Shown piece after piece: positions 781 through 19,838 of a stretch of DNA of 21,213 nt; position 1 is the first letter of the stretch; each line of letters begins with the position of its first letter. Under the pieces are notes generated by a model. That model had not been told where the DNA came from. It was given only the letters and a program-made list of their open reading frames with translations, and did not search any database. Origin of the DNA: a virus; the IMG/VR virus record IMGVR_UViG_3300005613_000477, positions 1 through 21,213 of that record; one strand, written 5' to 3'. Made by a program: the position numbers and the translations under genes.

Positions 781-997
781 TAACGTAATTATTACTGAGA
801 TTATTGAAGTTGGATCTGAACTTGGTGAGCCAGATTGTAAACTAATCAATCCTTATCAAATTGACTCTGATGAAAATTTGAAACCTTGGCCAGAGGTAAC
901 AAATCAAAGAGAAATGATGATACATTCGGATAGTATTCTTACAATTGTAGATCCGAAACCTGAAATTATTGAAAAATATCTTGAATTGACTTCCTAA
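743..997 (+). CDS. Conserved small phage protein, second of a paralogous pair
   Basis: 84 residues. The ATG at 743 follows a good ribosome-binding site (GAGGAAAG) and lies inside the end of the preceding gene (38-base overlap). Landmarks VKCLLLKVDNVIITEI, CKLINPYQI, KPWPE and ILTIVDPKPE match the order seen in the preceding 111-residue protein, indicating tandem duplication and divergence. The stop shares bases with the polymerase start (TAATG at 995-999), so translation is probably coupled to gp43. No function can be assigned; a role near the replication genes is inferred from position only. Confidence 0.8.
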   Translation: MEKTVKCLLLKVDNVIITEIIEVGSELGEPDCKLINPYQIDSDENLKPWPEVTNQREMMIHSDSILTIVDPKPEIIEKYLELTS

Positions 998-2466
998 TGA
1001 AATTTTATACAAATGTCCAGATGGTCGGAGACCACTTCTTGGTTAGAGGGTATGAAAATGGTAAGCATTTTATGACCCGTGAGAAGTTTTATCCGACTCT
1101 TTTTGTACCTTCAAATAAAGAAACAAAGTTTAAAACTCTTTCTGGTGATTATGTTGAACCAATTAAACCTGGAACTGTTCGGGAATGTAGAGATTTTGTT
1201 AAGAAGTATGATGGGGTAGAAAACTTTAAAATCTATGGAAATACATCTTACATTTATCAATATATTTCTGATATCTATAATGAAGATGAAATAAAATTTG
1301 ATATCAACAAAATCAAATTGACAACTTTGGATATTGAGGTTGCTTCGGAAAATGGATTTCCAGATCCAGAGTCTGCTTCTGAAGAAGTTCTTCTCATAAC
1401 AATTCAGGACTATGCAACCAAGCAAATACGAACATGGGGTTTGGGTTCATTTGATAACAAGCAAGATAATGTAATCTACAAACAATTTAGCAATGAAAGA
1501 GATTTGTTAAATGATTTCATTCATTGGTGGATGGTTGAAGAAAACATTCCTGAGGTAGTAACTGGTTGGAATATCGAGCTTTATGATATTCCGTATCTTG
1601 TGCGGAGAATTGATAGAGTTCTTGGTGAGAAATTGATGAAAAGAATATCTCCTTGGGGACTTGTAACTGAAAGTGAGATTTATGTATCTGGAAGAAAGCA
1701 AATTTCTTATGATGTTGGTGGAATTACTCAACTTGATTATCTGAATCTTTACAAAAAGTTTACTTATGTGAATAGAGAATCTTATCGTCTTGATCATATT
1801 GCAGATGTAGAATTGGGGCAGAAGAAACTTGATCACTCTGAGTTTGATACTTTTAAGGATTTTTATACTAATGGGTGGCAAAAGTTTGTAGAATATAACA
1901 TCATTGACGTAGAACTTGTTGACCGTCTTGAAGACAAGATGAAGTTGATTGATCTAGCTATTACAATGGCATATGATGCTAAGGCAAACTATGGGGACGT
2001 TTTTTCTCAGGTGAGAATGTGGGATACAATTATTTTCAATTATCTTAAGAAGAGGAAAATTGTAATTCCACCAAAAGAAAGATTGGATAAAGATTCAAAA
2101 TATGCTGGTGCTTATGTGAAAGAACCAATTCCGGGAAAATATGAATGGGTTGTAAGTTTTGACTTGAATAGTCTTTATCCACATTTGATTATGCAATATA
2201 ATATAAGTCCTGAAACTCTTTTAGATGAGAGGCATCCTAGTGTAACAGTTGAAAAGATACTTGATGAAAGTATTACTTTTGAAATGTATAAAGATTATGC
2301 TGTGTGTGCAAATGGGGCAATGTATAAAAAGGATGTGAGAGGATTTCTTCCAGAACTTATGGATAGAATATACAAAGACAGGAAAGTTTATAAGAAAAAA
2401 ATGCTTGCATCTAAGCAGGAATTAGTTGATATTGAAGAAGAAATGAAAAGGAGGGGTATTTTGTAA
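997..2466 (+). CDS. 43: DNA polymerase gp43, N-terminal piece (exonuclease and palm motif A)
   Basis: 489 residues of a family B replicative polymerase. The 3'-5' exonuclease motifs are intact: LDIEV with D112 and E114 (the same numbers as in T4 gp43), WNIELYDIPY (191-200), and Y300-N-I-I-D304. Palm motif A, SFDLNSLYPHLIMQY, follows at 387-401. The protein stops at residue 489 inside the fingers helices, after DRIYKDRKVYKKKML and an acidic stretch. Motifs B and C and the thumb are encoded by the next gene in another frame. The two pieces total 877 residues, against 898 for T4 gp43. All catalytic residues are kept between them, so a two-subunit active enzyme is likely. An artefactual single-base indel at the junction is the main alternative. 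Confidence 0.92.
   Translation: MKFYTNVQMVGDHFLVRGYENGKHFMTREKFYPTLFVPSNKETKFKTLSGDYVEPIKPGTVRECRDFVKKYDGVENFKIYGNTSYIYQYISDIYNEDEIKFDINKIKLTTLDIEVASENGFPDPESASEEVLLITIQDYATKQIRTWGLGSFDNKQDNVIYKQFSNERDLLNDFIHWWMVEENIPEVVTGWNIELYDIPYLVRRIDRVLGEKLMKRISPWGLVTESEIYVSGRKQISYDVGGITQLDYLNLYKKFTYVNRESYRLDHIADVELGQKKLDHSEFDTFKDFYTNGWQKFVEYNIIDVELVDRLEDKMKLIDLAITMAYDAKANYGDVFSQVRMWDTIIFNYLKKRKIVIPPKERLDKDSKYAGAYVKEPIPGKYEWVVSFDLNSLYPHLIMQYNISPETLLDERHPSVTVEKILDESITFEMYKDYAVCANGAMYKKDVRGFLPELMDRIYKDRKVYKKKMLASKQELVDIEEEMKRRGIL
2449..2456 (+). promoter_or_regulatory. Ribosome-binding site for the second polymerase piece
   Basis: AGGAGGGG lies at the very end of the first polymerase piece, 9-11 bases before the ATG at 2466. 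It is among the strongest Shine-Dalgarno matches in the window. It supports independent initiation of the C-terminal piece rather than dependence on a frameshift. Confidence 0.7.
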
Positions 2467-3632
2467 TGGGATATTTAATTGGAGGAAACAAAGAGGAGCA
2501 TCAAAAAGATATTAAAGCATCTGGTAAAAGTAAATATAGTAATCTCTCAGATAAAGAATTGGTTAAGATAAGGGAAATTAAAGAAAAGGAAATATCCAGA
2601 TATAATAACATCCAAATGGCGCGGAAGATTCAACTTAATTCTGCTTATGGCGCAATTGGAAATAATTATTTCAGATATTATAAACTTGCAAATGCAGAGG
2701 CAATTACACTATCGGGACAAGTCTCAATCCGATGGATTGAGAATAAGATGAATCAGTTTCTAAATAAGATTTTAAAAACAGTAGATGTTGATTATGTTAT
2801 CGCATCTGACACCGATTCAATTTATCTTAATCTTGGACCTCTTGTTGACCAATATTTTATTGATAAGTCTGATGATACGGGTAAGATTGTTTCGCTCTTG
2901 GATAAGATATGCCAAGAACAATTTGAACCGTATATCGAAACCTGCTATCAGGAACTTGCGTCGTATGTCAATGCATATGAGCAAAAAATGCAAATGAAGC
3001 GTGAAAATATTGCAGAACGTGGTATATGGACTGCTAAGAAAAGATACATTCTGAATGTGTGGGATAGTGAAGGTGTTCGTTATGAAGAACCTAAACTTAA
3101 AATTATGGGAATTGAAGCAGTTAAATCTTCAACACCAGCACCTTGTCGTAAAATGATTAAGGATGGTCTAAAATTGATGATGAGGGGTAATGAAGATGAT
3201 GTAATTGATTTCATTGATAAGTGTAGGGGAGAGTTTAAAAATCTATCACCAGAAGAAATTGCATTTCCAAGAACTGCTTCTGATGTGAAGAAATATAAAT
3301 CACACTCCTCAATTTATATTAAAGGAACACCGATTCATGTAAGAGGAGCACTTCTTTTTAATTACTATATTAAAGAGAATAATCTGACAAATAAGTATTC
3401 ATTGATTAATAATGGTGAAAAGATAAAATTTCTATACTTGAAAAAACCAAATATTATTCATGAAAATATAATTTCGTTCATTTCAGACTTTCCTAGAGAA
3501 CTTGGTCTTGACAAATATATTGATTATGACTTACAATTTGAAAAGAGTTTTGTTGAGCCACTAAAATCGATTCTCGATGCAATTGGTTGGTCTGTAGAAA
3601 AAACTAATACCCTAGAGGACTTTTTTGTATAA
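2466..3632 (+). CDS. 43: DNA polymerase gp43, C-terminal piece (palm motifs B and C, thumb)
   Basis: 388 residues. The first ~45, before NNIQMARK, belong to the fingers tip; they are lysine-rich and low in conservation signal. Then come motif B (K54-I-Q-L-N-S-A-Y-G), motif C (ASDTDSIY, with D115 and D117), and the KKRY-type DNA contact WTAKKRYILNVWD. The C-terminus NTLEDFFV corresponds in position to the sliding-clamp-binding tail of T4 gp43 (SLFDMFDF). The start overlaps the previous stop as TAATG and has a strong ribosome-binding site. Alone this piece lacks motif A and the exonuclease, so it must associate with the preceding product. Split gp43 genes are reported from some T4-like phages. 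Confidence 0.92.
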   Translation: MGYLIGGNKEEHQKDIKASGKSKYSNLSDKELVKIREIKEKEISRYNNIQMARKIQLNSAYGAIGNNYFRYYKLANAEAITLSGQVSIRWIENKMNQFLNKILKTVDVDYVIASDTDSIYLNLGPLVDQYFIDKSDDTGKIVSLLDKICQEQFEPYIETCYQELASYVNAYEQKMQMKRENIAERGIWTAKKRYILNVWDSEGVRYEEPKLKIMGIEAVKSSTPAPCRKMIKDGLKLMMRGNEDDVIDFIDKCRGEFKNLSPEEIAFPRTASDVKKYKSHSSIYIKGTPIHVRGALLFNYYIKENNLTNKYSLINNGEKIKFLYLKKPNIIHENIISFISDFPRELGLDKYIDYDLQFEKSFVEPLKSILDAIGWSVEKTNTLEDFFV

Positions 3633-6533: not shown

Positions 6534-6606
6534 GGGGGCATAGCTCAATTGGAAGAGCACTTGATTTGCATTCAAGAGGTTTCGAGTTCGAGGCTCGATG
6601 CTTCCA
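6534..6606 (+). tRNA. tRNA-Ala (anticodon UGC)
   Basis: 73 bases forming a full cloverleaf. The acceptor stem GGGGGCA pairs with TGCTTCC through two G-U pairs, including G3:U70, the classic alanine identity element. The anticodon arm is CTTGA-TTTGCAT-TCAAG with anticodon TGC, and the T-arm carries TTCGAG. Discriminator is A; CCA is not encoded. It reads GCN codons and may supplement the host pool. Confidence 0.93.
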
Positions 6607-6628: not shown

Positions 6629-6636
6629 TATAAATA
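6629..6636 (+). promoter_or_regulatory. T4-type late promoter before the HNH endonuclease
   Basis: TATAAATA, 21 bases before the ATG at 6658. This octamer is the T4 late promoter -10 element recognised by gp55-type sigma, and T4-like cyanophages use the same motif. A direct repeat TGGAGAG (6611-6617 and 6647-6653) flanks it; the second copy is the ribosome-binding site. Confidence 0.7.
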
Positions 6637-6657
6637 ACTATAGTTGTGGAGAGCACT

Positions 6658-7194
6658 ATGGTTAGTTGTGTTTGTAAAAATTGTGGACTGCGATTTGAAA
6701 AAATTAAAAGTGAATATAATAGAAAAATTAAATTGGGAACTCCATTTTTTTGTAGTTTAAAATGTTCTAGTAGTTTTGATACTTCACATTTAGATATCTG
6801 GAGAAAAAGTGAAGAAAATCGAAACTTTATAAAACAATTTAGTGGAAGTGACAGAGATGAGTATTCTCCTTTTAGGGAAACACTAAAAAAAGTTAAAAGT
6901 AGAAGTAAATCTAAAAATAGAGAGTGTAATATTGATTTAAAATATTTGAAAGAAGTATGGGAAATGCAAGAAGGTAAATGTCCATATTTAAAAAGAAAAC
7001 TAGTTCTTCCTTTGACTGACCAATCTCATGATAAATCAAATCCAAATTTAATTGCTAGTTTAGATAGAATTGATAGTTCAAAAGGATATGTGAAGGGAAA
7101 TATACAATTTATTAGCACAACTTTAAATTTTGCCAAAAACAAATATGATGAAAAGGTTTTATTAAATTTGATTGAAATGTGTTCTACCTTATGA
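6658..7194 (+). CDS. Free-standing HNH homing endonuclease with zinc finger
   Basis: 178 residues from ATG 6658, which has GGAGAG four bases upstream and is preferred to the in-frame GTG at 6646. The N-terminus has a cysteine cluster (CVCKNCG, C6 and C9; FFCSLKC, C32 and C36), likely a zinc ribbon. The C-terminal half carries an HNH-type core: WEMQEGKCPY (101-110), SLDRIDSSKGYVKGNIQF (134-151) and NFAKNKY. Such enzymes cut a cognate site in genomes lacking the insert, and repair copies the gene in. It lies between two tRNA genes and has its own late promoter, as expected of an intergenic mobile gene. Its target is unknown; the flanking intergenic sequence is the natural guess. Confidence 0.85.
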   Translation: MVSCVCKNCGLRFEKIKSEYNRKIKLGTPFFCSLKCSSSFDTSHLDIWRKSEENRNFIKQFSGSDRDEYSPFRETLKKVKSRSKSKNRECNIDLKYLKEVWEMQEGKCPYLKRKLVLPLTDQSHDKSNPNLIASLDRIDSSKGYVKGNIQFISTTLNFAKNKYDEKVLLNLIEMCSTL

Positions 7195-7208: not shown

Positions 7209-7291
7209 GCTCAAGTGGCGGAATTGGTAGACGCCCAGGTTTTAGGTACCTGTGTCCTTGTGACGTGGAGGTTCAAGTCCTCTCTTGAGCA
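7209..7291 (+). tRNA. tRNA-Leu (anticodon UAG)
   Basis: 83 bases with the long variable arm of a class II tRNA. Acceptor stem GCTCAAG pairs perfectly with CTTGAGC; discriminator is A and CCA is not encoded. The D-arm has GGTAGAC. The anticodon arm is CAGGT-TTTAGGT-ACCTG with anticodon TAG, reading CUN leucine codons. The T-arm is GAGGTTCAAGTCCTC. Confidence 0.95.
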
Positions 7292-12549: not shown

Positions 12550-12563
12550 GGTCTCTTTTTTTT
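12532..12563 (+). terminator. Rho-independent terminator fused to a late promoter
   Basis: AGAGGCC (12535-12541) pairs with GGTCTCT (12550-12556) with one G-U pair, extended by A-T pairs, followed by eight T residues (12556-12563). The T-tract runs into TATAAATA. It closes the 7308-12549 gene group. Confidence 0.85.
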
Positions 12564-12570
12564 ATAAATA
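12563..12570 (+). promoter_or_regulatory. T4-type late promoter of the 12601 gene
   Basis: TATAAATA sharing its first T with the terminator tract. The ATG at 12601 is 30 bases downstream, with AAAGG as ribosome-binding site. It should make the 12601 gene and those after it late. Confidence 0.85.
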
Positions 12571-12600: not shown

Positions 12601-13128
12601 ATGTCTCTCTGGGGCAATAAAGATAATATCGGTGTCGGTACTACTGGTTTAGTATCATTGGATTATGGCACTCTAGTTGTTACTGGAACTGGTACTAGTT
12701 TTGGATTGCCTGGATATGCACAGACAGGCGATGTAATTCGTTTTGGTAGTAGACTAGGAACTTATTTCGGTGATGCAGTTATCGTAGACATTGACAGTAC
12801 TACTCAACTCACAGTTGGATCTACTGCAATGCTAAGTGGTGCTGCAATCGCTAGCACAACTTATACAATCAATCAAGAGCCTAAGTATGTAACTCTTGAT
12901 AGTCAGTATAGTGAGACAAGAACAAATGCAGATACATTTGTTTACGGTATTTCAACCGCTGGTGCTCAATCTGCTCTTGGATCTCAATATGCAGTTCCTC
13001 ATGCTGGATGGGTCGGAATCATGACCTATAATGACAATGAGGGAAATCTGAGAGTTAAGAGTGAAGTTTTAGTTGCAATGTCTGGAATTGCTACTGGCAA
13101 CGTTCCACAGTTTCCCGGACAAAAATAA
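12601..13128 (+). CDS. Probable virion structural protein
   Basis: 175 residues, beginning MSLWGNKDNIGVGTTG. The sequence is rich in Gly, Thr, Ser and Ala with alternating beta-strand patterns (LVVTGTGTSFG, VIVDIDSTTQLTVG) and almost no lysine clusters, as in phage tail or head decoration proteins. The C-terminal part (VPHAGWVGIMTYNDNEGNLRVKSEVLVAMSGI) is a conserved-looking block. Expressed from an excellent late promoter directly after a terminator. I recognise the MSLWGNKD start as recurrent in T4-like cyanophages, usually listed as structural or hypothetical; the exact role is not known to me. Confidence 0.85.
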   Translation: MSLWGNKDNIGVGTTGLVSLDYGTLVVTGTGTSFGLPGYAQTGDVIRFGSRLGTYFGDAVIVDIDSTTQLTVGSTAMLSGAAIASTTYTINQEPKYVTLDSQYSETRTNADTFVYGISTAGAQSALGSQYAVPHAGWVGIMTYNDNEGNLRVKSEVLVAMSGIATGNVPQFPGQK

Positions 13129-14182: not shown

Positions 14183-15153
14183 TGGATTTGGTTGATTCCA
14201 AATATATTGGATTAATTTCATCTCGCTTAGAAAAGTTTAAAAGAGTAAAAGTAAATCTTTATAATTTTAGATGTCCTTTTTGCGGTGATTCAAAAAGAAA
14301 TAAGACCAAAGCACGAGGATATATTTACACTGTTAAAAATAATACTAACTTTAAATGTCATAATTGTGGAGCGAGTTTTTCATTTAATAATTTTCTAAAG
14401 CAACTAGATTCAACTCTTCATAAACAATATACTTTAGAGAAGTTTAAAGAAGGTCACACTGGAAAAAACTTTGTAGTTGAGACTCCTAAGTTTAATTTTA
14501 AAAGACCAGTCTTTAAAAAAAAGATTGACTTACCTAAAGCATCTGAAGTTGAAGTTGCCAGAAAATATCTTGAAGGTAGAAAATTAGATTCGAGTAAGTT
14601 TTATTATGCTCATGAGTTTAAAAAATGGACAAATGCTCAGAAAAAAACATTTTCAAATACTCTTAATGATGAGGGAAGAATTATAATCCCACTTTATGAC
14701 TTCAATTCCAATTTAATCGGATTTCAGGGAAGATCTCTAAATCCTAATTCGATTAAATATATAAGCGTCATGTTAAACGAAGATGCACCAAAAATCTATG
14801 GACTTAATACAATCAATAAAGAATTACCAATCTATGTGGTCGAAGGACCCTTCGACAGCAATTTTGTCAGCAATAGTGTGGCTATGTGTGGCAGTGACGG
14901 TGACATGGACTGTCTTGAAGGAAGCGACCTTATTTTTGTATACGACAATGAGCCCCGTAATAAAGAGATTGTCGGCAGAATTGGGAATACTCTTGATAGA
15001 GGTCACAAAATCGTCATCTGGCCAGGAAATATAGTTGAAAAGGATATCAATGATATGATTCTTTCTGGACATGACATTATGAGTGTGTTAAAATCAAATA
15101 CATACTCTGGTTTACAGGCAAAAATTAAGTTTAACAATTGGAAAAAAATATGA
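14182..15153 (+). CDS. 61: DNA primase gp61
   Basis: 323 residues. A zinc ribbon at the N-terminus is formed by C31-P-F-C34 (FRCPFCGDSKRNK) and C59-H-N-C62 (FKCHNCG). The TOPRIM core follows: LIGFQGRSL, then YVVEGPFDSNFV with the catalytic glutamate, and IFVYDNEPRNKE in place of the DxD strand. KDINDMILSG is also typical. gp61 joins the gp41 hexamer to form the primosome and lays RNA primers on the lagging strand. Length is close to T4 gp61 (342). It is coupled at both ends, TAATG at the start and ATGA with nrdA. Confidence 0.95.
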   Translation: MDLVDSKYIGLISSRLEKFKRVKVNLYNFRCPFCGDSKRNKTKARGYIYTVKNNTNFKCHNCGASFSFNNFLKQLDSTLHKQYTLEKFKEGHTGKNFVVETPKFNFKRPVFKKKIDLPKASEVEVARKYLEGRKLDSSKFYYAHEFKKWTNAQKKTFSNTLNDEGRIIIPLYDFNSNLIGFQGRSLNPNSIKYISVMLNEDAPKIYGLNTINKELPIYVVEGPFDSNFVSNSVAMCGSDGDMDCLEGSDLIFVYDNEPRNKEIVGRIGNTLDRGHKIVIWPGNIVEKDINDMILSGHDIMSVLKSNTYSGLQAKIKFNNWKKI

Positions 15154-16787
15154 CGAACGGAACAAAAGTTGTAAAAAGATCAGGAAACCTTGAATCTCTC
15201 AATCTCAATAAACTTCATGTAATGGTAGAAGAAGCTTGTAAGGACCTTGCTGGGGTCTCTGCTAGTCAAGTGGAGATGCAGTCTGGCATTCAGTTTTATG
15301 ATGGCATTACAACGGCAGAGATTCAGGAGATTCTAATTCGTTCTGCATCAGATTTGATTGATTTGGACCACCCAAACTACCAGTATGTTGCAGCAAGGTT
15401 ACTTCTCTTTTCTCTTCGTAAACAATTGTTTGGTGGAATGCATGATTCTCCAAAAGTTTTGGAGCATGTTCAAAAATGTGTGGAGTCTGGAGTTTATGAT
15501 GCGGAAATTTTAGATTTATATTCTGATGAAGAGTTTGAAAAACTTGAATCATTTATTGATCATCAGAGAGATTATCTTTTTACTTATGCCGGTCTTCGTC
15601 AAGTTGTAGATAAGTATCTTGTGCAGGATAGAAGCACTGGAAAGGTGTATGAAACTCCACAATTCATGTATCTTTTGATTGCAGCAACTATTTTTTCCAA
15701 GTATCCTAAAGAAACAAGACTTGATTACGTAAGGAGATACTATGACGCAATCTCAAAACACAAAATCAACATTCCCACACCTATCATGGCGGGAGTGCGA
15801 ACTCCACTTCGACAATATGCTAGCTGTGTGCTTATTGATTCTGATGACACCCTCGATAGCATCTTTAGTTCTGATATGGCTATCGGCCGATATGTTGCAC
15901 AAAGGGCGGGAATCGGTATCAACGCAGGTCGAATCCGTGGCATCAACAGCAAAATCAGGGGGGGAGAAGTTACTCACACAGGTGTTGTCCCTTTCCTCAA
16001 GAAGTTTGAAAGCACTGTCAGATGCTGCACTCAAAATGGCATCAGAGGTGGATCAGCGACAGTACACTTCCCCATCTGGCACCAAGAAATAGAAGACATC
16101 CTCGTATTAAAAAATAATAAGGGATCTGAAGATAATCGTGTTCGTAAGTTAGATTATAGTATTCAAACCAGTAAAATCTTCTATGAGCGATTTATCAAAG
16201 ACGAAGACATTACTCTCTTCAGTCCACACGACGTTCCTGGTTTGTATGATGCTTTTGGCACTGATAGATTTGATGAGTTATATGTGGGTTATGAATCAGA
16301 TAACTCTGTTCCAAGAAAAACTATCGGAGCTCAAGAACTCTTTCTAAGTCTTTTGAAAGAAAGAGCAGAGACAGGTCGTATTTACATCATGAATATCGAT
16401 CACTGCAATTCTCACTCATCTTTTATGGATAAAGTTGAGATGAGTAATCTTTGTGTTTCTGGTGATACGCAAATTACAATTGAGTTCTATTATGGAAAAG
16501 ATTGTATAAGAAAGACAATTAGCATTAAAAACTTGGATGGGTATATTGCTGATCCAAATTACAAAGATTTAAAAGTTCTTTCTTATAATATTCAATCTAA
16601 TCAAGAAGAGTGGGCACAAATTACTAATTTTACAGAAACCTCACCAAAAGCAAAGGTAATGAAAATTACTGATGAAGAAAGTGGTAAGAGTATCGTGGTC
16701 ACACCAGAGCACCAAGTATTCACAAAAAATCGTGGATATGTAATGGCAAAGGACTTAACTGAAAATGATGAGTTGGTAATTAACTGA
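15150..16787 (+). CDS. nrdA: NrdA N-terminal part fused to N-half of a split intein
   Basis: 545 residues from ATG 15150, whose ATGA overlap with the primase stop makes it preferable to the TTG at 15138. Residues 1 to about 95 are an ATP cone (VVKRSGNLESLNLNKL), the allosteric activity site of class Ia ribonucleotide reductase. The barrel domain has C226 in YASCVLIDSDDTLDS, matching redox cysteine C225 of E. coli. Residues 1-434 end in MSNL, the sequence just before the radical cysteine in NrdA. From C435 on, the protein is intein: CVSGDTQITIE (block A) and IVVTPEHQVFT (block B), ending LTENDELVIN and a stop. Reductase activity needs splicing to the product at 17514-18608. Ribonucleotide reductase supplies deoxynucleotides for phage replication. 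Confidence 0.95.
   Translation: MTNGTKVVKRSGNLESLNLNKLHVMVEEACKDLAGVSASQVEMQSGIQFYDGITTAEIQEILIRSASDLIDLDHPNYQYVAARLLLFSLRKQLFGGMHDSPKVLEHVQKCVESGVYDAEILDLYSDEEFEKLESFIDHQRDYLFTYAGLRQVVDKYLVQDRSTGKVYETPQFMYLLIAATIFSKYPKETRLDYVRRYYDAISKHKINIPTPIMAGVRTPLRQYASCVLIDSDDTLDSIFSSDMAIGRYVAQRAGIGINAGRIRGINSKIRGGEVTHTGVVPFLKKFESTVRCCTQNGIRGGSATVHFPIWHQEIEDILVLKNNKGSEDNRVRKLDYSIQTSKIFYERFIKDEDITLFSPHDVPGLYDAFGTDRFDELYVGYESDNSVPRKTIGAQELFLSLLKERAETGRIYIMNIDHCNSHSSFMDKVEMSNLCVSGDTQITIEFYYGKDCIRKTISIKNLDGYIADPNYKDLKVLSYNIQSNQEEWAQITNFTETSPKAKVMKITDEESGKSIVVTPEHQVFTKNRGYVMAKDLTENDELVIN
16452..16784 (+). other. Split intein, N-terminal fragment (111 residues)
   Basis: Starts at the TGT codon 16452 (Cys1, the first splicing nucleophile) after SNL. 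Block A is CVSGDT, and block B is TPEH with the conserved Thr and His. The fragment ends in ELVIN just before the stop. With 33 residues in the C-fragment the whole intein is 144 residues, a mini-intein without an in-frame endonuclease domain. It resembles the NrdA split inteins I recall from marine viral metagenomes. Confidence 0.92.
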
Positions 16788-16791
16788 TATA

Positions 16792-16843
16792 TAGGAAGTG
16801 TAATGTCTATATTTTATAAATAGTTATGAGATTACACTTCCTA
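16792..16843 (+). promoter_or_regulatory. Hairpin over the endonuclease leader, with promoter in its loop
   Basis: A perfect 13-bp inverted repeat: TAGGAAGTGTAAT (16792-16804) and ATTACACTTCCTA (16831-16843), with a 26-base loop. The 3' arm ends two bases before the endonuclease ATG at 16846, so in read-through RNA the start region is buried in a stem. A late promoter in the loop would give RNA lacking the 5' arm. This design is known for I-TevI in T4. No T-tract follows, so it is not a terminator. Confidence 0.85.
16815..16822 (+). promoter_or_regulatory. T4-type late promoter inside the hairpin loop
   Basis: TATAAATA, 23 bases before the endonuclease ATG. Initiation around 16828-16830 would just omit the loop and 5' arm and free the start codon. 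The transcript would also cover the second NrdA piece and nrdB. Confidence 0.8.
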
Positions 16844-16845
16844 CA

Positions 16846-17520
16846 ATGAAAACATATATTGTTTATAAAATTACTAATAAGAAAAACGGAAAATATTACA
16901 TAGGAAAAACTGAATATTCTTTAGAGCATCGTTGGAATCGCCATTTATCGTCAGCAAGAAATGGTTCTAAATTTAGATTTCATTCCGCTATTAGAAAATA
17001 TGGTGAAGATTGTTGGGACTTATCTGTGATTGAAACTTATCAAACTGAAGATGAAAACTTTATCAATGAAAAGGAATCGCACTTCATCAAACTCTTTGAA
17101 AGTGATACTAAAAAAGGTTATAATGCAACTTCAGGAGGAACTGGTGGTTGGATGCTTCCCCGATGCTCACAAGAGGTTCAAGAAAAGTGGAGAAATGGTA
17201 TTTCTGTAAGAACTACTGGTTATAACAACCCAAACTATTCTGGACTTACTGACGAACAACTTATAGAAATTGGTGTGAAGTTTGCCAAAAAGTATGGATT
17301 TATTGGTGGAAGAAAAAGAATAGTTGAGTTTGCTTCTAGTGAATTGAATGTAAAGTTCCCAAAACATTTTTCTAAAAATAGATTTAGAGGAAATCATCAA
17401 AACTTTTATAAATGTATTGAAGAACAAACAGGATTAATGTATAATCCTTACTATAAAGACGAAACTCAAAGAGCACTTGCTAAACAACTTTTAGAACAAA
17501 ATAGGAGAAAAAAATGTTAA
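16846..17520 (+). CDS. GIY-YIG homing endonuclease between the split nrdA halves
   Basis: 224 residues. The GIY-YIG domain occupies about residues 1-97: YIVYKITNKKNGKYYIGKT (the first motif is VYKI rather than GIY; YYIG fits), HRWNRHL with the catalytic arginine R29, the metal-binding glutamate in NEKESHF (E75 or E77), and GYNAT (N93). The rest is a DNA-binding tail with a possible helix-turn-helix (LIEIGVKFAKKYGFIGGRKR) and basic C-terminus. No Shine-Dalgarno precedes the ATG. Homing endonucleases of this family, such as I-TevI, cut unoccupied alleles so that repair copies the element in. Here the likely target is the uninterrupted nrdA radical-cysteine site. The last seven bases overlap the start of the second NrdA piece. 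Confidence 0.93.
   Translation: MKTYIVYKITNKKNGKYYIGKTEYSLEHRWNRHLSSARNGSKFRFHSAIRKYGEDCWDLSVIETYQTEDENFINEKESHFIKLFESDTKKGYNATSGGTGGWMLPRCSQEVQEKWRNGISVRTTGYNNPNYSGLTDEQLIEIGVKFAKKYGFIGGRKRIVEFASSELNVKFPKHFSKNRFRGNHQNFYKCIEEQTGLMYNPYYKDETQRALAKQLLEQNRRKKC
17503..17507 (+). promoter_or_regulatory. Ribosome-binding site of the second NrdA piece
   Basis: AGGAG, six bases before ATG 17514, lying entirely within the coding sequence of the endonuclease. It lets the C-half of NrdA be translated independently while tying it to the endonuclease 3' end. Confidence 0.8.
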
Positions 17521-17612
17521 AGATTGAATATCTTGAAGAAGAAATTCCCGTTTATGATATTACAGTAGAAGGAACTCACAATTTCTTCGCAAATGATATT
17601 CTTGTCCATAAT
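17514..17612 (+). other. Split intein, C-terminal fragment (33 residues)
   Basis: Begins with its own ATG. Block F is VYDITVEGTHNFFAND; block G is ILVHN followed by Cys. The final His-Asn performs asparagine cyclisation, and the +1 Cys (17613-17615) is the second splicing nucleophile. Length is typical for natural C-inteins. Confidence 0.93.
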
Positions 17613-18608
17613 TGCCAAGAAATCACACTTCCAACAAAACCTATTCAACATATTGATGATAAAAATGGCGAAATTGCGCTATGCATTTTGTCTGCTGTTA
17701 ATATTGGAAAGTTGAAAGATGAAGAGGATTTAAAAGATCTTTGTGATCTTTCTGTTAGATCACTAGATGAATTAATCGATTTTCAAGAATATCCTGTAAG
17801 AGCAGCTGAAATTGCTACAAAGGCACGTAGGTCTCTTGGTATAGGATACATTGGACTGGCACATTATTTGGCAAAAAATGGAGTAACTTATGATTCCCCA
17901 GAAGCTTGGAAACTCATTCATGATTTAACAGAAGCATTTCAGTATCATTTGATTCGTGCATCGGTTAGAGTTTCAAGAGAGAAAGGTCCATGTGAGTGGT
18001 GGAAGAAAACCAAATATGGAAATGGTATTTTACCTATTGACACATATAAAAAAGATGTAGACGAAATCGTTGCCAATGAGTTAAAATATGATTGGAATCG
18101 CCTCAGAGAGAAGATTCAAAAGTATGGCATACGTAATAGCACATTGTCCGCACAAATGCCCTCAGAAAGCAGCTCAGTCGTTTCTAATGCAACAAATGGT
18201 ATTGAACCACCAAGAGGATACTTATCAATTAAGAAGAGCAAAAAGGGACCTTTGAAACAAATTGTGCCGCAATATGCCACTCTCAAAAATAACTACACTC
18301 TTCTTTGGGATATGAAGAGTAATGAGGGTTATATTAATATTGTTGCCGTAATGCAAAAGTTTTTTGACCAAGCAATTTCTGGCAACTGGAGTTATAATCC
18401 ATTGAACTACCCCAATAATGAGGTTCCTGTGTCCGTAATGGCACAAGATCTTTTGACTACATATAAGTATGGTTGGAAGACAAGTTATTATCAAAATACT
18501 TATGATTTCAAAACGGATGAAATCGAAGAGTCCAAACCATCAATTGATAATTTAATTTCTGATATTTTAGATTCGTCGGAGGAAGATTGTGAGTCTTGTA
18601 AGATTTAA
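17514..18608 (+). CDS. nrdA: C-half of split intein fused to NrdA C-terminal part
   Basis: 364 residues. Residues 1-33 are the C-terminal intein fragment. C34 begins the extein as CQEITLPTKPI, the NrdA radical-site sequence (E. coli C439 and E441). Then GEIALCILSAVN carries the second redox cysteine (E. coli C462), MPSESSSVVSNATNGIEPPR is the typical C-terminal barrel signature, and SYYQNTYD holds the tyrosine pair of the radical path (E. coli Y730/Y731). The tail ends CESCKI, the thioredoxin- or glutaredoxin-reducible cysteines. The extein part is 331 residues; joined to 434 from the first piece it gives 765. All catalytic residues of a class Ia large subunit are present after splicing. nrdB follows. 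Confidence 0.95.
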   Translation: MLKIEYLEEEIPVYDITVEGTHNFFANDILVHNCQEITLPTKPIQHIDDKNGEIALCILSAVNIGKLKDEEDLKDLCDLSVRSLDELIDFQEYPVRAAEIATKARRSLGIGYIGLAHYLAKNGVTYDSPEAWKLIHDLTEAFQYHLIRASVRVSREKGPCEWWKKTKYGNGILPIDTYKKDVDEIVANELKYDWNRLREKIQKYGIRNSTLSAQMPSESSSVVSNATNGIEPPRGYLSIKKSKKGPLKQIVPQYATLKNNYTLLWDMKSNEGYINIVAVMQKFFDQAISGNWSYNPLNYPNNEVPVSVMAQDLLTTYKYGWKTSYYQNTYDFKTDEIEESKPSIDNLISDILDSSEEDCESCKI

Positions 18609-18633: not shown

Positions 18634-19776
18634 ATGGTCAAACAAATGACCGTCTTTAATTCTGAAGAAGTTGACACCAAAAAGCAACCAATGTTTTTTG
18701 GAAAACCACTAGGTATACAAAGATATGATTCTTACAAATATCCAATTTTTGAAAAACTGACGACTCAACAATTAGGATATTTCTGGAGACCAGAAGAAGT
18801 CTCCTTACAAAAAGATATCTCAGACTACAAAACATTACGACCAGAACAAAAGCATATCTTTACCAGTAACTTGAAATATCAAGTTATGTTGGATTCTGTG
18901 CAAGGTAGAGGACCCAGTATGGCATTTGCACCGTATTGCTCTCTACCTGAGTTGGAAGCATGTATGAAGGTCTGGGAGTTTATGGAAATGATTCATTCTC
19001 GATCTTATACATATATTATCAAGAATGTTTATTCAGATCCTTCTGAAGTGTTTGATACGATTCTTCGTGATGAAAGAATCCTCGAACGTGCTTTTAGTGT
19101 TACTGAGTCTTATAATGACTTCATTAATCATGCTCAGCATTATGGAAGTACTGATGATTGGCTACATGCATTAGAAGAAGTACCATCAGCACAGGAAAGT
19201 AGATATGAACTCAAACGGAAACTTTTCAGAGCAATTGCAAACGTTAATATTCTTGAAGGTATTCGCTTTTACGTCAGTTTCGCTTGCAGTTTTGCTTTTG
19301 GCGAACTCAAACTTATGGAAGGAAGTGCAAAAATTGTCTCATTAATTGCAAGAGATGAGAATCAACATCTAGTCATTACTCAAAACATTCTGAATAAGTG
19401 GAAAGAGGGTGATGATCCTGAGATGAAGAAAATTGCATTAGAAGAGGAAAATTGGATTTATAAAACATTTGAAAAGGCAGTCAATCAAGAGAAACTTTGG
19501 GCAGAATATCTGTTTAAAGATGGATCTATGATTGGGTTGAATGATAAACTTCTGCAACAATACGTAGAATGGATTGCGAATCGTAGACTTAAGGCAATTG
19601 GTCTTAAACCACTTTATGATATTCCTGCAAAGAATAATCCACTTCCTTGGACTGAGCATTGGATCTCTTCTAAGGGACTTCAAGTGGCACCTCAAGAAAC
19701 GGAAATAGAGAGTTATATTATTGGTGGAATTAAACAAGATGTTACTGCCAATACTTTTAGTGATTTTAAGCTTTGA
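18634..19776 (+). CDS. nrdB: NrdB, class Ia ribonucleotide reductase radical subunit
   Basis: 381 residues from ATG 18634, which has AGGAG (18623-18627) six bases upstream; the in-frame GTG at 18589 lies within nrdA. Diiron ligands and radical tyrosine are all visible: D87 (VMLDSVQG), E118 and H121 with Y125 (FMEMIHSRSYTYI), E208 (NILEGIRFY), E242 and H245 (RDENQHL). These match E. coli D84, E115, H118, Y122, E204, E238 and H241. W51 in YFWRPEEV matches E. coli W48. NrdB makes the tyrosyl radical that is passed to the NrdA cysteine. The gene is intact, while its partner is split. A terminator follows at 19805. Confidence 0.96.
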   Translation: MVKQMTVFNSEEVDTKKQPMFFGKPLGIQRYDSYKYPIFEKLTTQQLGYFWRPEEVSLQKDISDYKTLRPEQKHIFTSNLKYQVMLDSVQGRGPSMAFAPYCSLPELEACMKVWEFMEMIHSRSYTYIIKNVYSDPSEVFDTILRDERILERAFSVTESYNDFINHAQHYGSTDDWLHALEEVPSAQESRYELKRKLFRAIANVNILEGIRFYVSFACSFAFGELKLMEGSAKIVSLIARDENQHLVITQNILNKWKEGDDPEMKKIALEEENWIYKTFEKAVNQEKLWAEYLFKDGSMIGLNDKLLQQYVEWIANRRLKAIGLKPLYDIPAKNNPLPWTEHWISSKGLQVAPQETEIESYIIGGIKQDVTANTFSDFKL

Positions 19777-19804: not shown

Positions 19805-19831
19805 AGAGGGTCTTTAAAACCCTCTTTTTTT
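19805..19831 (+). terminator. Rho-independent terminator after nrdB
   Basis: AGAGGGT (19805-19811) and ACCCTCT (19819-19825) form a perfect 7-bp stem with a seven-base loop, followed by seven T residues (19825-19831). The T-tract again runs directly into TATAAATA. Confidence 0.9.
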
Positions 19832-19838
19832 ATAAATA
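19831..19838 (+). promoter_or_regulatory. T4-type late promoter of the last gene
   Basis: TATAAATA whose first T is the last T of the nrdB terminator, 30 bases before the ATG at 19869. The same layout and the same distance to the start codon occur at 12563. Confidence 0.85.

Follow-up and report, generated by a model that had tools for sequence, protein, structure and literature searches.

The window examined here, the whole 21,213-base IMG/VR virus record IMGVR_UViG_3300005613_000477, is a metagenomic fragment in which nrdA, the gene for the large subunit of ribonucleotide reductase (RNR), is spread over two open reading frames (ORFs) with a GIY-YIG homing endonuclease gene (HEG) in between. 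Very probably this is a fractured gene, with a mobile GIY-YIG cassette lodged in a class 1 intein, a NrdA protein restored by trans-splicing, late control of the endonuclease and spread of the cassette by homing. The window has its kin among the T4-like cyanophages, S-SRM01 being the best isolate.

Structure of the fractured nrdA gene

All parts of the locus lie on the plus strand, and all frames are open. The first ORF (15138-16787) encodes NrdA residues 1-434 (the N-extein, 15150-16451), with the ATP-cone, Ribonuc_red_lgN and part of the lgC domain and a match to PRK09103 positions 3-440. It continues into a 111-residue N-intein with Cys1, block A and block B (TPEH), and this segment (16452-16787, the intein reaching 16784) closes with a TGA codon (16785-16787). 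The 224-residue HEG follows at 16846-17520. The second half of nrdA starts with its own ATG and comprises a 33-residue C-intein (17514-17612) with blocks F and G and a His-Asn end, and then NrdA residues 435-765 (the C-extein, 331 residues; 17613-18608, coding to 18605 before the stop), aligned to PRK09103 positions 438-759. The NrdA portions on either side of the break are matched by Pfam and NCBIfam models. Coordinates and domain models agree with the first-pass annotation, which had described the same succession of parts and lengths, and the blocks and residues it had listed (blocks A, B, F and G, Cys1, the terminal His-Asn and Cys+1) are all found in the window. The break falls after SNL and before a Cys (residue 34 of the C-half ORF) aligned to position 439 of PRK09103, a class Ia NrdA model; Cys439 is the catalytic Cys of E. 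coli NrdA. Since this Cys begins the C-extein, the +1 splicing nucleophile is the enzyme's own catalytic residue.

Intein halves and protein splicing

The two intein regions score 33.9 bits against TIGR01445 (intein N-terminal) and 41 bits against TIGR01443 (intein C-terminal), in both cases above the cut-off; Pfam PF14890 gives 35.4 and 31.9 bits for the intein regions of the window, under its cut-off of 35.8 bits. Cys1, the terminal His-Asn and Cys+1 occur without exception in 57 distinct alleles, block B matches TP[DEG]H in 55 of them, and the features of a class 1 intein (Cys or Ser at position 1, a +1 nucleophile and a terminal Asn) are all present. The C-intein is 94-100% identical to that of most relatives, with nonsynonymous divergence (dN) of about 0 at a synonymous divergence (dS) of 0.39. 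Contiguous homologues from other contigs, aligned and modelled, give a HINT fold with a predicted local distance difference test (pLDDT) score of 89, and their best match in both sequence profile and fold is the NrdJ-1 split intein (8ubs). The element of the window can accordingly be described, as far as sequence allows, as a natural split intein whose complementary halves carry splicing residues at the break. The joining of the NrdA halves by protein trans-splicing, as the first-pass annotation had proposed, is the best-supported reading of these intact and nearly invariant residues.

An improbable alternative is that the NrdA halves assemble without being joined, the intein halves being passive tails. 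The NrdA of Aeromonas phage Aeh1, split by MobE without an intein, keeps its function (PMC3653736), and the related loci L165-L170 (L-numbers denote loci compared with that of the window) carry a second, intein-free GIY-YIG split at C-extein codon 14. Decay would be expected of passive tails, whereas Cys1, His-Asn and Cys+1 never vary among the 57 alleles and the C-intein shows nearly no dN; moreover, the break adjoins the catalytic Cys, so that an unspliced tail would occupy the active site. An Aeh1-type break contains no intein, and intein halves are present in the window.

Fractured, contiguous and empty alleles

Allele counts at this codon are lower bounds: we found at least 47 distinct fractured alleles, at least 10 distinct contiguous mini-inteins lacking the HEG and at least 63 distinct empty nrdA genes. 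A comparison with uninterrupted nrdA genes of close relatives had been proposed with the first-pass annotation, and these empty sites at the same codon agree with the fractured-gene reading. The recurrence of the layout also bears on the concern that a 21-kb metagenomic fragment might unite unrelated pieces through an assembly or sequencing artefact. This explanation is refuted: the same layout is seen in the 47 or more distinct fractured alleles from many independent contigs and a similar one in the isolates KP13-7 and TG1.

The N-intein of the fractured alleles ends in TAA in 26 cases, TGA in 18 and TAG in three; this use of three different stop codons led us to reject stop-codon readthrough. 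A group I intron around the HEG was likewise rejected: there is no Rfam intron match in the window (at gathering score) or in L089, L161, L163 or L167, and the N-intein stop and C-intein ATG are conserved among relatives.

The isolates with the closest similar layouts are Klebsiella phage KP13-7, Yersinia phage TG1 and Campylobacter phage CPt10. The nrdA gene of KP13-7 (OP617745.1; L161, 1541-7071) is interrupted at three places, by a 128-residue endonuclease-like gene, by a GIY-YIG gene within a split intein and by a 323-residue gene within a second split intein, and its pieces are mostly annotated as hypothetical. In L167 (3249-4216), and also in L165, L166 and L168-L170, the intein-free break at C-extein codon 14 is made by another GIY-YIG gene downstream of a contiguous intein, an arrangement resembling that of Aeh1, with TATAAATA ahead of the breaking gene. 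L045 (5041-6021) carries a contiguous intein with a LAGLIDADG endonuclease at the same NrdA codon. In the window itself, the partner gene nrdB (18634-19776, plus strand; PF00268, PRK09101) lies downstream of nrdA. A DNA polymerase at 997-3632 is encoded by two overlapping ORFs with an ATGA junction at 2466; each half has a PHROGs family of its own (phrog_2062 and phrog_1918), so this split is not unique to the window.

The endonuclease gene

The HEG matches PF01541 (E=1.4e-12) and resembles the catalytic domain of I-TevI (1ln0/1mk0, E=4e-5), with equivalents of R27 and E75 that are invariant. The first-pass annotation had recognised a GIY-YIG endonuclease here, and with the fold motif and the catalytic Arg and Glu in place the gene is identified as a GIY-YIG homing endonuclease, predicted to cleave DNA. 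Its structure model is weak (mean pLDDT 63) and insufficient for a fold search. No match above 60% identity was found for it in 50,697 phage records. The closest relatives of the HEG, as well as the distant ones in L260-L262 (38-45% identity), sit in fractured RNR large-subunit genes; some weaker partial matches (L264, L265 and L273, the few whose surroundings were read) lie outside such genes.

The dN/dS ratio is 0.11 for the HEG and 0.06-0.11 for the exteins. These values and the open frames of the window argue against a dying relic, in which endonuclease and split would be non-functional and the phage would depend on the RNR of its host. We regard this as very improbable; the observation that favours it is a frameshifted HEG in one lineage of relatives. 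In L157 (4965-5010), and also in L158, the HEG loses its frame at an A-run close to the start of the gene, the late promoter is altered and the C-half has no Shine-Dalgarno (SD) sequence, which reflects either decay or sequencing error.

Control hairpin and translation signals

A hairpin of 13 bp (16792-16843; arms 16792-16804 and 16831-16843; -21 kcal/mol, z = -3.8) ends 2 nt before the start codon of the HEG. Its pairing is kept in 98.7% of pair cells over 35 distinct relatives, with compensatory changes at three pairs; the columns are highly conserved in sequence, and support from covariation is therefore moderate. The hairpin named as a control element in the first-pass annotation is real, but that description was incomplete: a T4-type late promoter, TATAAATA (16815-16822), lies within the loop and points to control of the I-TevI kind. 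The motif is found in 44 of 47 relatives, the remaining three carrying one-base variants. Alone it is not rare in the window (four occurrences observed, 1.9 expected), and its weight comes from its position in the loop and its conservation. Two further copies lie at 12563-12570 and 19831-19838, the former 30 bases ahead of an ORF of unassigned function (12601-13128, phrog_3086), and another (6629-6636) lies immediately upstream of an HNH-like endonuclease gene (6646-7194) situated between tRNA genes at 6534-6606 and 7209-7291.

In an RNA that begins past the loop promoter, no stable structure covers the HEG start codon. The layout of I-TevI-type late control, a hairpin over the start region with a late promoter inside it, is present, and use of the promoter is predicted; hairpin and late-promoter control of this arrangement is described for I-TevI, SegB and the MobE of Aeh1 (PMC2988022). 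Other endonuclease genes in fractured nrdA loci likewise follow hairpins with late-promoter-like loops, namely in TG1, in KP13-7 and at a second intein site (see below) of L324 and of L317, the loop of L317 resembling the promoter only loosely. In TG1 an SD sequence, AAGGAGCATCATA, lies within the 3' arm of the hairpin.

The hairpin might instead work only as a DNA operator, a dyad bound by the endonuclease. I-TevI does bind an operator over its late promoter and represses itself (PMC2988022), and the strong sequence conservation of the hairpin columns would suit such a role. Changes in the arms preserve pairing, however, some of them by compensation, and in other fractured nrdA loci hairpins of unrelated sequence enclose a late-promoter-like loop, which suits a role in RNA. 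We consider an exclusive operator function unlikely, although the DNA and RNA roles are compatible with each other.

The C-half has start signals of its own. An SD sequence, AGGAG (17503-17507), is found inside the last HEG codons ahead of the C-half ATG and is kept in 45 of 47 alleles, and the end of the HEG overlaps the C-half ATG by 7, 8 or 14 nt among relatives. Because these signals sit in the HEG, loss of the entire gene would remove the start signals of the C-half of NrdA, which would favour retention of the HEG.

Mobility of the cassette

The HEG and C-intein show about a quarter of the divergence of the exteins: dS, which remains subject to a caveat of codon bias, is about 0.39 for both the HEG and the C-intein, rises to 0.64 in the proximal N-intein and reaches 1.5 in the exteins. 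We rejected the idea that codon bias alone accounts for the low divergence of the HEG, since same-codon rates after correction for codon usage are 0.53 for the HEG (0.48 for the C-intein and 0.37 for the proximal N-intein) against 0.15 for the exteins. Distances between HEGs correlate with those between C-inteins (r 0.73) and barely with those of the distal N-intein (r 0.10, p 0.07). Trees of the HEG, N-intein and exteins have only one or two of 31 splits in common and reject each other in approximately unbiased (AU) tests based on fast searches, the HEG under the extein trees included. The N-extein and C-extein trees themselves share only seven splits, which means that nrdA, too, recombines.

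On the N-extein tree the fractured state requires at least 19 changes, counting strongly supported branches alone, and on the N-intein tree fractured and contiguous alleles are intermixed with eight changes, at least four of them forced. A single clade of HEG-bearing alleles was rejected on both trees. The clearest evidence for mobility comes from the near-identical natural pairs. Between the fractured L152 and the contiguous L167 the flanks are 96.8 and 96.6% identical and the N-intein is nearly the same up to the HEG, L167 having in addition its unrelated break farther downstream. Between L126 and L052 the entire element is present or absent between flanks of 94 and 92% identity, and between L154 and L194 the intein is replaced by a different one within flanks of 98 and 96%. 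Judged from tree conflict, low dS and occupied and empty pairs rather than from a cross, the cassette moves recurrently between phages. Gains of the whole element are consistent with cleavage of empty nrdA, and differences in the HEG alone with cleavage of inteins that lack it.

Among the contiguous alleles, L194, L195 and L235 have divergent inteins. The C-intein of L183 differs by 4.6% from that of the nearest fractured allele, as against at least 11% for all other contiguous alleles, and its linker resembles the end of the HEG; L183 therefore looks like a re-fused cis intein. Gain and loss of the HEG have likely both happened, in an order that tree counts cannot give.

A second intein site in nrdA

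A further split intein, lying 186 residues into the C-extein, interrupts nrdA in L089, L317-L321 and L324; its halves enclose a 350-residue gene of HNH-like appearance. L322 (3164-3264), L323 and L325 retain the split, with the endonuclease gene reduced to a scar of 100 bases; compared with L324, 47 bases of the left border (89% identical) and 74 bases of the 3' end of the HEG (86%) are left, about 1 kb having been deleted. The halves are separated by 33 bases in L195 (4425-4464) and L316 and by two bases in L326 and L327 (3354), with no endonuclease gene between them. The second site thus holds bare split inteins, one kind of which keeps remains of an endonuclease gene.

How the locus may work

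These observations are best accounted for by a GIY-YIG cassette that sits inside a class 1 intein directly ahead of the catalytic cysteine of NrdA, and whose insertion would make a natural split intein out of one that splices in cis. The two halves would be translated separately, the C-half from the SD sequence inside the HEG, and would then associate and trans-splice into one NrdA of 765 residues. On transcripts reading through nrdA the hairpin would cover the start region of the HEG, and the promoter in the loop would yield transcripts free of the hairpin. Synthesis of the endonuclease would then be late, as the cases of I-TevI, SegB and the Aeh1 MobE suggest. The cassette and the adjacent C-intein would spread among phages by homing, mobility being shown by the comparison of alleles and cleavage being predicted.

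Several points weigh against this reading. The support for splicing, for endonuclease cleavage and for promoter use is indirect, and the function of the Aeh1 NrdA as two unspliced pieces indicates that splicing is not strictly forced. No SD sequence is recognisable in the leader of the HEG in the window, unlike in T4 I-TevI, nor is one seen in the 3' arm of the hairpin. Fractured pairs show no clear rise in similarity of the extein flanks toward the insertion, as co-conversion would produce.

A bolder proposal, which we hold tentatively and at somewhat less than even chances, is that the GIY-YIG gene and the C-intein together are a parasite of the intein. The pair would enter resident cis mini-inteins of many lineages and replace their C-half with its own, repeatedly making split inteins, and loss of the HEG would leave a bare split, as at the second site, or a re-fused cis intein, as in L183. 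The need to pair with N-inteins that differ greatly would then keep the C-intein nearly invariant.

Relation to known systems

In 2009 Dassa et al. reportedly described fractured genes that contain split inteins, and they are said to have proposed them as a step from cis inteins to split inteins. In later accounts, seven nrdA and two nrdJ cases interrupted by inteins are attributed to that study (PMC3653736). As these accounts present them, the loci agree with ours in that a split intein breaks a conserved gene of nucleotide metabolism and a free-standing endonuclease gene lies between its halves; going by the citing papers, the present case adds a site with cis, fractured and empty alleles and a second one with scars of HEG deletion. 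The AceL NrdHF locus is likewise a fractured RNR gene with a GIY-YIG gene between the intein halves, and its trans-splicing was shown in vitro (PMC7891396). It consists of a class 3 intein of 98 + 48 residues in a class Ib beta-subunit gene, whereas the window has a class 1 intein (Cys1) of 111 + 33 residues in a class Ia nrdA. The first-pass annotation had singled out the GIY-YIG enzyme as a special point of interest, which the AceL precedent takes away. NrdJ-1 (8ubs) is the nearest solved structure in sequence profile and fold, and gp41-1 (6qaz) matches too; identities in the fold alignment are about 33% and 26%, and both inteins reside in other genes.

Aeh1 has a T4-like nrdA split by an endonuclease gene under a hairpin and late promoter (PMC2988022), but MobE is an HNH enzyme, there is no intein and the pieces stay unspliced. 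I-TevI of T4 td shares the GIY-YIG catalytic domain and a late promoter yielding transcripts without the inhibitory hairpin (PMC2988022). It differs in residing in a group I intron, of which the window has no Rfam match, and the HEG of the window is without a clear SD sequence. The nrdA genes of KP13-7 and TG1 show the same succession, from the N-intein through a hairpin whose loop resembles a late promoter and an endonuclease gene to the C-intein. The GIY-YIG protein of KP13-7 has only about 34% identity to that of the window, and nrdA has three breaks in this phage; the endonuclease of TG1 is unrelated.

Fractured RNR genes with split inteins, including a GIY-YIG case, are thus already published (PMC3653736, PMC7891396), and the locus of the window is a further member; the allele series exceeds what those two papers describe. 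Split inteins are widely used as tools for joining proteins, and about 40 N-intein variants with almost a single C-intein would, if active, provide splicing tools ready for use. For the biology of these genes, the series offers natural alleles from before, during and after splitting at one gene: empty sites, cis mini-inteins and fractured genes, with scars and bare splits at the sister site. With cis, fractured and bare-split forms available, the origin of split inteins becomes testable with natural pairs.

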